This document shows, piece by piece, positions 33,894-54,872 of a stretch of DNA of 64,000 nucleotides. The DNA is taken from the NCBI RefSeq assembly GCF_000210095.1, contig NC_021039.1, forward strand, positions 1,578,107 to 1,642,106, written 5' to 3'. Under the pieces are notes generated by a model that did no database searches, had not been told where the DNA came from, and saw only the letters and a list, made by a program, of their open reading frames with translations. The position numbers were made by a program, and so were the translations under genes. Numbering within the stretch: the first letter of the stretch is position 1; each line of letters starts with the position of its first letter. The DNA is from Ruminococcus champanellensis 18P13 = JCM 17042. GTDB taxonomy: Bacteria > Bacillota > Clostridia > Oscillospirales > Ruminococcaceae.

Positions 33894-34071
33894 GTACAGG
33901 TGATTGCGACAGATATGCGAGGAAGCGGAAGGTTGCTGGCGGTATGTCAGGGAATTTCCGTGGAGTATGTCCGATTTTAAACCGGGCGAAAAGAGATAAC
34001 GGACACAGTTTGTGCTTTGTGCTAGCTTGCGTATGCATGGAGTATGCCCGAATTGTGCCTATCTGAACTTC

Positions 34072-51477: not shown

Positions 51478-52056
51478 GTGGCAAACGATGCAGCAATGTA
51501 TGAATTCCTGCAGCAGGATAACGTATTGTCAGCCGAAGAGCGTTACCGCTTATGTCAGCAGAGCTACATGCATGGCAATACTGCGCCAAAGCTGCAGCCG
51601 GAAGCTCAGCCGGAATTTACGCCGGAGATCCACCGTTCCAGACGAAGCGATATCAGCACGCCCGAAATAAGTATGAGAAGAAGCACGCACAAAAAAGGCT
51701 CTGCACCGAAAACATTTTTGGCGGCAGCCTTTGCAATGGGACTGCTTGGCGCCGTGATTTATGGCAGGGTACAGACAAACGAGATCTATGGCGAAATAGC
51801 AAGAGAAACCAAAGAGTACGAAATCGTACAAAGTGAGAATGTACGCATGCACTCCGATCTGGAGGCAAAGGTGGCGATCAAGAGCGTGGAGGAATACGCC
51901 GAGCAGGAGCTTGGTCTTCAGCAACTGGATCAGTCCCAGATTGAGTACATTCAGCTCCAGACCGATGATTCGGTGGAGATTCCCGATGAGGAAAAGAACC
52001 TGTTTGTCCGGATTAAGGACAAATTCGAGAGCTTTATGGAATATCTGAAAGGATAA
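51478..52056 (+). CDS. ftsL: Cell division protein FtsL (septum initiator)
   Basis: FtsL is a bitopic protein that helps recruit the FtsW-PBP pair at the septum. The 192-residue product has a cytosolic N-terminal part of about 75 residues that is longer than usual, one membrane helix (about 78-97, TFLAAAFAMGLLGAVIYG), then a coiled coil (EIARETKEYEIVQSENVRMHSDLEAKV) with a DivIC/FtsL-like end. Identity rests on position and architecture. GTG start at 51478 after AAAGGAG. Confidence 0.8.
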   Translation: MANDAAMYEFLQQDNVLSAEERYRLCQQSYMHGNTAPKLQPEAQPEFTPEIHRSRRSDISTPEISMRRSTHKKGSAPKTFLAAAFAMGLLGAVIYGRVQTNEIYGEIARETKEYEIVQSENVRMHSDLEAKVAIKSVEEYAEQELGLQQLDQSQIEYIQLQTDDSVEIPDEEKNLFVRIKDKFESFMEYLKG

Positions 52057-52496
52057 GACATATAGTGAAGAGAGCAAGAACCATTCGCAAATACCGGAAC
52101 AGAAGAAAATGAACGCCGCATCGGTGAAAGAGGGCAAAAGCCCCGCACGAAACGGCGAAGAATATGTACGGCGCAGCTGCAAAGTACGGAACAAAGAAAG
52201 CAAAGACAACAGGCGAGTGTAAACAGAATGCAGGCGGCACGCTGCGAGACCTGCACCGACGGGTGCGGGATGTGCTGCCAAAGCTTCGATTGAATATGGG
52301 GTACTGCATCAAGCCCCATGTTCCTTCGCCGATCAAATTGGATGTCGTGAGGCATCGGCAACAGGCGGGGAGATCGGAATATCCCTGCCTGTTTGCCTTT
52401 ATGTTTCAATAACCCTTATCTGAGTGCTTCCCGGTGGGCAGAAGCTTTGCCCGGATACCGGAGTATTCAGATAACGGCTATGGAAAGGAGCAGTAC
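52057..52496 (+). ncRNA. Hairpin-rich untranslated gap inside the division cluster
   Basis: This 440-base stretch has no convincing protein. It begins purine-rich (to about 52220) and then holds a chain of stems: CGCCG/CGGCG (52114-52118, 52153-52157) around GGGC/GCCC (52132-52143); GGCGGCAC/GTGCTGCC (52233-52240, 52272-52279) around an eight-pair stem (52250-52257, 52262-52269); ATGGGG/CCCCAT (52296-52301, 52314-52319); GCCGAT/ATCGGC (52328-52333, 52354-52359); and a continuous 12-pair stem (52360-52371 with 52382-52393) followed by a T-rich run (to about 52407). A smaller stem lies at 52436-52452. The 12-pair stem could be a terminator or attenuator ahead of the PBP gene. A structured RNA is inferred, not proven. 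Confidence 0.5.
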
Positions 52497-54872
52497 ATGT
52501 CAAACAGAGATGAAACCACGGCGCAGATGAAAACCCGTATGAACGTCTGGGTGCTGGGTGCCATGATGGTGCTGGCGCTGGCGGTTATTATCAACCTGTT
52601 CAAGGTGTCCATCATTCAAAATAAAGAATATCAGGAAATGGCAAACAACAACCACTTCGGCTCGATCACCATTCCGGCAAACCGGGGCTCGATCTACGAC
52701 GCAAACGGCAAGATCCTTGCCCAGAGTGCTACAGTTTACAAGATCTACATTGACCCGGTGCTGTTTCGCAAGGAGCTTTCTGGATACACCCAGAAGGAAA
52801 CTGACCGGATGGCGGATGCGGCAAAAAACGGTGAAAGCTACACGCCGGTGGATATGAACGCAAAGAAGGATGAGCTGGTGCAGTTTCTTGCCCGGACCCT
52901 GGACATCAAGGAAGAAACCGTCCGGGAGGCAATGGAGAAGAATACCCAGTATTATGTGCTCAAGACCCAGGTGGAAAAGCCCACGGCGGATCAGATCCTG
53001 GAGTATGTAAACAATATCGTAGTGGGGCAGGAGGTCAACAAAGCGGGGGAGATCAAGGATCGTACCATCAGCTTTGCTTCCATCACCACTGAAAGTGATA
53101 CAAAGCGGTACTATCCCCAGAATTCTATGGCGGCTTCCGTCATTGGCTTTACCAACAGCGACGGCGACGGTCTGTATGGTCTGGAGGCTTTGTATGATGA
53201 TTATCTGCATGGTACGGACGGCAAGACCATTTCCGCAAAGGACGTAAACGGCAACGAGATGCCCTACCGGTACTCCAAGACCTATGACGCCCAGGATGGC
53301 AACTCTCTGTACCTGACCATCGACACCACCTTGCAGACCTATCTGGAATCTAACCTGGCGGAGATGGTGACCAAGTGTCAGGTCAACAACCGTGCCTGCG
53401 GCATTATTATGAACGCCAAAACCGGTGCGGTACTGGCCATGGCCACTTATCCAGGGTTTGATCTGAATGAACCGTATGTGATTGCGGATCTTGCTGTGCA
53501 GGAATATCTGGATACCCTGTCCGAGGGGGAATACAAGACCGCTTATGTGGAAGCCCGGGAAAAGCAGTGGAAAAACAAAGCCATCACCGAGTTGTACCAG
53601 CCGGGTTCCGTATTCAAGGTCATAACCGCCTCTGCGGGCTTTGAGGAGTCGGTAATCAAGCTGACGGATACCTTTAACTGTACTGGCGGCGTAGTAGTGG
53701 TGGATGGCGTGCCCCCTATCCACTGCAGCAAGCGAACCGGTCATGGGGTACAGGATTTTACCACAGCGTTGACCAACTCCTGTAACCCGGCGTTTATGGA
53801 GATCGGCAAGCGGCTGGGTGCCACCAAATTCTTTCAGTACTTCTCCGCCTTCGGATTGACGGAAAAAACCGGCATCGATCTGCCAGGCGAGGTACCCAGC
53901 TATTATAAAGACCTGGAGGATATGGGCCCGGTGGATCTGGCGGTATGCTCCTTTGGTCAGACCAATATTGTAACCCCCATCGAAATGATCACTGCCTATG
54001 CGGCAGCCATCAACGGAGGCTACCTGATGAAGCCCTATGTGGTCAGCAAGATCGTGGACACGGACGGGAACGTCATCAAGACCACGGAGCCGGAGATCCG
54101 GCGCCAGGTGGTTTCGGAAGAAACCAGTGCGATTATGCGGAAGGCGCTGGAGGACGTGGTGAACAACAAGGGCGGCAGTAACGCATACATCAAGGGCTAC
54201 CGGATCGGCGGCAAGTCTGGTACCTCCCAGAAGATCGGCGGCAGCATTTCCTCCGGAGATGAAGATGATATGCAGTATGTGGCTTCTTATGCATGCTTTG
54301 CTCCGGCAGATGATCCGGAGATCATCATGCTGATTATGGCGGATGAGCCCAACAAGGCCATTACCTACTACGGCAGTACAGTTGTCGTACCCTATGCAAG
54401 AAAGGTTCTGGAAAAGGTTCTGCCGTATCTGGGATATTATCCTGAATATACCGAAGAGGAGCAGGCAAAGCTAGGTGTAAAGGTGCCCTTCCTGGAGGAT
54501 GAATCGGTGGAAACGGCAAAATCCAAGCTGGATAGCCTGGGGCTGAAATATGAGATCGTGGGAGAGGGCGAGAACGTATACTCCCAGACGCCCATTACAG
54601 GTATGCAGGTGCCCAAGGGCGGCACGGTGATCCTGTATTCCGAGCCAATCGAAACGGAAAACACGGTGGATGTTCCCAATGTGGTGGGCATGAAGCTGTC
54701 CCAGGCCAATGCGCTGCTGACCAGTCACGGTCTGAACTATGTCACAGCAGGCGCATCCGCTGACCGGAGCGACGTGACCATTGTGTCCCAGTCTCTGGAG
54801 TCGGGATCCACGGTTGCAAAGTGGAGTGTTATGGAAATCGAATTTGCGGTAAACGATCACCAGACCGGCTGA
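52497..54872 (+). CDS. spoVD: Penicillin-binding protein of the SpoVD/PBP2 class with PASTA domains
   Basis: This 791-residue class B PBP is the transpeptidase partner of FtsW/SpoVE. It has one membrane helix (about 17-38), a dimerisation domain (about 55-260), and a transpeptidase domain with the active Ser371 in SVFK, the second motif SCN in TNSCNPAF near 438 and the third motif KSG in GGKSGTSQ near 575. Two PASTA domains (about 655-720 and 722-790) end the protein. In sporulating clostridia this position holds SpoVD, but it may also be the only division PBP here. It is preceded by a 440-base structured gap, unusual in this cluster. ATG 52497 follows AAAGGAG. Confidence 0.92.
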   Translation: MSNRDETTAQMKTRMNVWVLGAMMVLALAVIINLFKVSIIQNKEYQEMANNNHFGSITIPANRGSIYDANGKILAQSATVYKIYIDPVLFRKELSGYTQKETDRMADAAKNGESYTPVDMNAKKDELVQFLARTLDIKEETVREAMEKNTQYYVLKTQVEKPTADQILEYVNNIVVGQEVNKAGEIKDRTISFASITTESDTKRYYPQNSMAASVIGFTNSDGDGLYGLEALYDDYLHGTDGKTISAKDVNGNEMPYRYSKTYDAQDGNSLYLTIDTTLQTYLESNLAEMVTKCQVNNRACGIIMNAKTGAVLAMATYPGFDLNEPYVIADLAVQEYLDTLSEGEYKTAYVEAREKQWKNKAITELYQPGSVFKVITASAGFEESVIKLTDTFNCTGGVVVVDGVPPIHCSKRTGHGVQDFTTALTNSCNPAFMEIGKRLGATKFFQYFSAFGLTEKTGIDLPGEVPSYYKDLEDMGPVDLAVCSFGQTNIVTPIEMITAYAAAINGGYLMKPYVVSKIVDTDGNVIKTTEPEIRRQVVSEETSAIMRKALEDVVNNKGGSNAYIKGYRIGGKSGTSQKIGGSISSGDEDDMQYVASYACFAPADDPEIIMLIMADEPNKAITYYGSTVVVPYARKVLEKVLPYLGYYPEYTEEEQAKLGVKVPFLEDESVETAKSKLDSLGLKYEIVGEGENVYSQTPITGMQVPKGGTVILYSEPIETENTVDVPNVVGMKLSQANALLTSHGLNYVTAGASADRSDVTIVSQSLESGSTVAKWSVMEIEFAVNDHQTG

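Follow-up and report, generated by a model that had tools for sequence, protein, structure and literature searches.

Why should a cluster of closely packed division genes open up into a long stretch without a gene? This question is raised by the division (dcw) cluster of Ruminococcus champanellensis 18P13 = JCM 17042, in which the end of ftsL (52056) and the ATG of the following penicillin-binding protein (PBP) gene (52497) enclose a gap of exactly 440 nt (52057-52496), while the other dcw neighbours overlap or stand about 3-29 nt apart. Coordinates refer to the window, the whole stretch of 64,000 nucleotides that was analysed (contig NC_021039.1, positions 1,578,107 to 1,642,106 of the forward strand). 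The genes and signals that frame the gap are the following.

51478..52056, + strand: ftsL-like gene, closing the upstream mraZ-rsmH-ftsL unit; the predicted promoter sits in the gene's final codons
52482..52490, + strand: ribosome-binding site of the PBP gene, GGAAAGGAG
52497..54872, + strand: class B PBP of the SpoVD/FtsI type, carrying PASTA domains; the element lies in front of it

The initial annotation of this DNA had described a non-coding gap in an otherwise tight cluster, and this description holds. A coding frame was rejected, since the one 82-aa ORF that spans 52164-52412 shows neither coding constraint (set against the nearest relative compared, the MAG Ruminococcus sp. SUG102, 7 codons changed non-synonymously and 2 synonymously) nor conservation, being missing from a third congener. 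A mobile or repeated element is ruled out by the single copy in the genome (2,573,208 bp, one contig). The region folds strongly: 52040-52500 reaches a minimum free energy of -169.1 kcal/mol (z -5.67), which none of 100 shuffles equals. Most of this signal is supplied by the hairpin-rich second half (52225-52400, z -5.46); it is weaker in the first half (52073-52224, z -2.31), whose purine-rich, distinct character had been recognized from the start and which contains the conserved motif M described below.

It had further been supposed that division clusters rarely have such gaps, and this fails at the junction studied here. Direct DNA similarity reaches one congener only (90%) and gives short chance matches beyond the genus; relatives were therefore gathered via FtsL protein synteny, and the ftsL-PBP junction was read in 166 loci (165 for the promoter count, 161 for the terminator count). 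Most of these relatives have a junction gap of 40 to about 570 nt; lengths near 80-200 nt prevail, and it is mainly in Ruminococcus-like genera that long gaps occur. Since gaps of this range are the rule at the junction, the gap as such is not unusual in the group. One of them, the 369-nt gap of locus L035 (genome G120), holds short near-repeats (GATTAGCTATTAGC) as well as an inverted-repeat insertion that its relative L034 lacks.

What the junctions have in common begins within ftsL, at the left edge of the gap as it had been delimited; the promoter straddles this edge and had not been mentioned before.

52039..52044, + strand: predicted -35 element GAATAT, within the last ftsL codons (E-Y); GHATAY is kept in 118/165 junctions
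52059..52066, + strand: predicted -10 element CATATAGT, 14 nt past the -35 hexamer; the octamer is shared with a promoter-like site of spoIIIAA

GAATAT-N14-CATATAGT is the sole 12/12 match to the promoter pattern on both strands of the 64-kb window. Most junctions show GAATAT, with GCATAT or GAATAC as occasional variants, and (A/C)ATANNAT comes 14-15 nt further on. Matches of at least 11/12 occur in 118/165 junctions compared to 24/660 control windows, which were taken from the bodies of upstream genes, and perfect matches in 89/165 compared to 1/660. The overlapped Glu codon is GAA rather than GAG in a ratio of 124:3, compared to 909:781 elsewhere in ftsL, and the -10 block holds its spacing where the ftsL stop codon shifts, which argues that the constraint acts on the DNA. 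The C-terminus of FtsL itself (E-Y-[ILMF]-x-G, 52036-52056 and relatives) may be maintained by the overlapping promoter and not by protein function.

The pattern fits promoters of the mother-cell sigma-E type. The genome encodes sigma-E (TIGR02835, 358.5 bits, above the cut-off) as well as SpoIVA and SpoIIIAA, and the logo of the 118 loci has the -35 with an ATA core and the CATANNNT-type -10 at 14-15 nt that are expected of this sigma factor. An ATA-containing -35 has been described for C. difficile sigma-E promoters (PMC3789822), and B. subtilis spoVD is controlled by sigma-E (PMC517825). As a control we read the region upstream of spoIIIAA, which in R. champanellensis holds GCATAA-N15-CATATAGT, with a -10 identical to that of the gap promoter. 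spoIIIAA is a classical sigma-E gene, and among 30 family genomes its upstream regions show the same blocks and spacing, 13/30 at 11/12 compared to 9/90 control windows; the support that this control lends is modest. No promoter was readable for spoIVA, a gene closely behind another gene. Scanning the complete genome with GAATAY-N14,15-MATANNAT returned 6 matches, most within genes, and this pattern is too strict for listing a regulon, missing even the gap promoter, whose site ends in GT. One of these matches, at G000:C1:2091469-2091497 (L228) of this genome, is a sigma-E-like pattern separated by 20 nt from the D-Ala-D-Ala carboxypeptidase-like gene that follows it. Vegetative (sigma-70) promoter-like sites are absent from 51900-52600, and neither the gap nor the PBP gene shows anything convincing of this kind. 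By eye, loci L029 and L137 carry TTGACA..TATAAT-like vegetative sites between terminator and PBP start, which the window lacks.

The second common feature lies towards the other end of the gap.

52357..52406, + strand: predicted intrinsic terminator, a 15-pair stem (52357-52371/52382-52397) with T-rich tail TTTATGTTT (52398-52406)
52416..52474, + strand: post-terminator stem TTATCTGAGTGCT..AGTATTCAGATAA, just 5' of the ribosome-binding site; the outer arms are the same in genome G001, the loop has diverged

A stem of 12 pairs (52360-52371/52382-52393) followed by a T-rich run had been recorded by the initial annotation; it is present and grows to 15 pairs, GGC at 52357-52359 pairing with GCC at 52395-52397 around one bulged T. 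With a loop of 10 nt it exceeds the limit of 8 set in a simple terminator scan, which therefore passed it over. Judged by its G+C-rich hairpin, its U-rich tract and its conserved position, 52357-52406 has the makings of an intrinsic terminator. The stem-loop shows 0/41 changes relative to G001, and the tail is not a pure U-run. A stable hairpin with a T-rich tract occurs in 130/161 junction gaps compared to 33/161 shuffled gaps, approximate counts in which the best-scoring hairpin was picked automatically (in a few long leaders, e.g. L011, L023 and L135, an upstream one) and many loci are related to each other. The letters of the stem vary by genus and the pairing stays: AGGCGGGG/CCCTGCCT in the relatives of the window and AAGGGTTGAGA/TCTTGACCCTT, GAAAGTTAAG/CTTAGCTTTC, AAGAGTTAAG/CTTAGCTCTT or GGGCTGCA/TGCAGCCC elsewhere, while G002 of the same genus has GCGG-A-GAACGT-AAAA-ACGTTC-CCGC followed by TTTTTT. 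In 42/99 loci the hairpin starts at most 8 nt from the start site predicted by the -10 element. Short-gap genera (e.g. L085, L105, L175) show a further peculiarity, as their terminator stem keeps GUUAAG..CUUAGC, with the U-G wobble in the same place in many genera, a sequence conservation that exceeds the need of an ordinary terminator. An order-level sample of 29 loci shows the promoter 19 times and the terminator 14 times; 24 of these loci come from outside the family, and among them the promoter occurs in 15 and the terminator in 11. Promoter and terminator appear to be common to the bacterial order.

Between these two elements the window holds a long predicted leader.

52073..52187, + strand: 5' half of the leader, from the inferred start site 52073 to motif M, weakly folded; 12/115 changes relative to G001
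52188..52226, + strand: motif M, purine-rich GGAACAAAGAAAGCAAAGACAACAGG-CGAGTG-TAAACAG, with the core CGRGTG at 52214-52219; 0/39 changes relative to G001
52233..52279, + strand: hairpin H1, a 9-pair outer and an 8-pair inner stem
52292..52323, + strand: hairpin H2, 11 pairs, loop of 10; 1/43 changes relative to G001, uninformative for covariation
52341..52356, + strand: hairpin H3, GATGTC-GTGA-GGCATC; one U-G to C-G change relative to G001, pair kept

The stretch from promoter to terminator measures about 100-350 nt in Ruminococcus-like genera, that is in the genus itself and four or five others. Its CGRGUG core is present in 26 of 35 leaders of this clade, compared to 13.7% of shuffles, and is preceded by a purine-rich 30-mer in 14 of the 35, compared to 0.26% of shuffles; motif M recurs in five genera. 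The compensatory changes that the initial annotation had suggested looking for among relatives were found in one stem, H1, within the genus. Across three congeners (all of the genus compared) 96% of its pairs are kept and 6 carry double compensatory changes, where shuffles give a mean of 2.0 and slid controls at most 2. Comparing the complete predicted fold between R. champanellensis (G000) and G001 gave 10 broken pairs compared to 14.0 expected (p ~0.07), a suggestive result at most, and the fold of the 5' half, which holds a stem CGCCG..CGGCG at 52114-52157, is consequently not to be trusted.

Between the two closest species the stretch from motif M to the terminator has changed at only 6/210 positions, compared to 31/99 past it. 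This contrast is possibly exaggerated by a recombination border, since the four-fold sites of ftsL are less diverged (9/66) than those of the PBP gene (66/134). Even against the four-fold sites of ftsL the leader is the most conserved stretch, and its conservation ends at the terminator. The long leader would be an addition in Ruminococcus-like genera that selection has kept as RNA. In the sister genus g20, long invariant stretches of the leader flank a rapidly covarying hairpin. Leaders of g6 (L128, L011, L132, L144) share a conserved hairpin loop, ACGUCUGCAAGU, and those of g28 (L012, L023, L135, L138, L141) a conserved loop, AUCGGACAGAU; the two may be the same hairpin with another loop. 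The arms of hairpin P1 differ across genera and gave no automatic alignment. No Rfam family matches the leader, whether the gathering threshold or a cut-off of E up to 5 is applied; Rfam recognises nothing in the window but an S10-Clostridia ribosomal protein leader at 33912-33992 (RF03136, 40.4 bits). Our literature search found no description of a spoVD leader or terminator.

The comparisons show a promoter motif, a terminator motif and an RNA structure under selection, and we think it probable that the gap separates two transcription units of the division cluster. Vegetative transcripts from mraZ-rsmH-ftsL would meet the hairpin at 52357-52406 and be largely terminated there, and the sigma-E-type promoter in the last ftsL codons would start a second transcript near 52073. 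This transcript would open with the structured leader, comprising motif M, H1, H2 and H3, would pass the same terminator by partial readthrough and would feed the PBP/SpoVD gene, whose product is one of only two PBP_dimer proteins encoded in the genome. Most likely, then, the element uncouples spoVD from the vegetative transcript and, by way of a structured leader, places it under a sporulation sigma factor. A conserved regulatory boundary with a new candidate for a structured leader RNA is, in our judgement, real. Pure insulation fails to explain why the promoter lies upstream of the terminator, because the sigma-E transcript must also cross it. Furthermore, murE and later genes downstream are needed in growth and have no clear vegetative promoter, so that either vegetative transcription must cross the terminator to some extent or a promoter has gone unseen. 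Regulated readthrough would resolve both the promoter placement and the supply of mur gene products. Tentatively, one may go further and envisage a new class of leader RNA in Ruminococcus-like genera, made of motif M and variable hairpins, that controls readthrough of the order-wide ftsL/PBP terminator and keeps the PBP gene low in vegetative division and open in sporulation, possibly with a dedicated CGRGUG-binding factor.

One alternative is a regulated attenuator: the leader, with motif M and H1-H3, would respond to a ligand, to a protein or to the state of the ribosome and so decide whether the terminator near 52400 forms, which would place the control of spoVD after initiation. The order of promoter, conserved structured RNA, terminator and gene speaks for it, as do the end of conservation at the terminator, the recurrence of motif M in five genera and the long invariant stretches of the g20 leader. 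However, across 34 leaders no common pairing that would sequester the 5' arm of the terminator emerged (mean z -0.57, an analysis blind to protein-driven antitermination), nor is there an Rfam match, and we regard this reading as rather doubtful. Since most of the order has the terminator without a leader before it, the ancestral device was not an aptamer-attenuator. The earlier idea of a cis-acting regulator or attenuator thus stands as regards a cis-acting, terminator-bearing element with a structured leader before the PBP gene, but the search for a conserved antiterminator came up empty.

The promoter might also belong to another sigma factor, sigma-H or sigma-K, in which case the gene would be activated earlier or later than the sigma-E stage. 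In C. difficile spoVD is listed with a SigH-dependent promoter and an expression of 0.15 in the mutant (PMC7438776), and SpoVD acts at asymmetric division, ahead of sigma-E activity (PMC10693644). At the junctions studied here, however, the -10 is (A/C)ATANNAT, with a sigma-H-like GAATA in just 22/118, and the GCATAY variants of the -35 fit sigma-E and break the AGGA of sigma-H. Sigma-K has AC and not ATA at its -35, its -10 elements being similar to those of sigma-E (PMC3789822). With spacing and -10 also agreeing with spoIIIAA, assignment to either of these factors seems unlikely.

Quite unlikely is a stand-alone small RNA of about 330 nt, made in sporulation between promoter and terminator, for which the PBP neighbourhood would be incidental. 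The initial annotation had considered a small RNA with its own terminator, and such an RNA is conceivable in that the conserved unit spans promoter to terminator and then gives way to high sequence turnover. Against it, the element is a single copy at the ftsL-PBP junction only, a sequence-only model of motif M (of low specificity) gave no convincing second site in 61 genomes, and the short distance from promoter to terminator in most genera leaves no room for a substantial RNA. Chance hairpins or a short coding frame, the latter suggested by the 82-aa ORF, are highly improbable in view of the folding z score, the covariation of H1 and an ORF that is neither constrained nor conserved.

An order-wide promoter and terminator that divide ftsL from its PBP partner would provide independent evidence, at the DNA level, of a cluster divided by transcription, and the leader joins the candidates for structured RNAs that are absent from Rfam. 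Among known systems, terminator-bearing 5' leaders such as riboswitches, T-boxes and ribosomal protein leaders (e.g. S10-Clostridia, RF03136) share the arrangement of promoter, structured RNA, terminator and gene. Unlike these, the spoVD leader has no Rfam match and no conserved antiterminator was found for it, the S10 leader lying elsewhere in the window. The 5'-terminal stem-loops of the aprE and ermC type are mRNA stabilisers and resemble the hairpin that many genera have at the predicted 5' end of the transcript; here, in contrast, a U-rich tail follows the hairpin, which in the window is reached only about 280 nt after the predicted start. In B. subtilis, pbpB sits between ftsL and spoVD. 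A spoVD gene of the dcw cluster under sigma-E control is a likeness to that species (PMC517825), in which pbpB-spoVD is listed as a non-operon pair (PMC1808063). The difference is that here the final part of ftsL contains the promoter, with a terminator behind it and, in the clade, a long leader as well.

The spoVD gene of C. difficile has a promoter directly upstream with TGAATATA and GAATAATTA blocks that resemble the motif described here (PMC7438776, Table 3). It differs in being assigned to SigH, and the available part of that report mentions neither a terminator nor a structured leader. SpoVD has sporulation-specific roles in this organism, where the cluster's FtsL/SpoVD/SpoVE machinery is a sporulation specialist that vegetative division can do without, and in many Clostridia no other FtsI exists (PMC10693644). 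The transcriptional split proposed here agrees with a sporulation-specialised SpoVD/SpoVE as in C. difficile and with the presence of only two PBP_dimer proteins, and it raises the testable question whether in gut Oscillospirales, too, the only division-type class B PBP is a sporulation protein.
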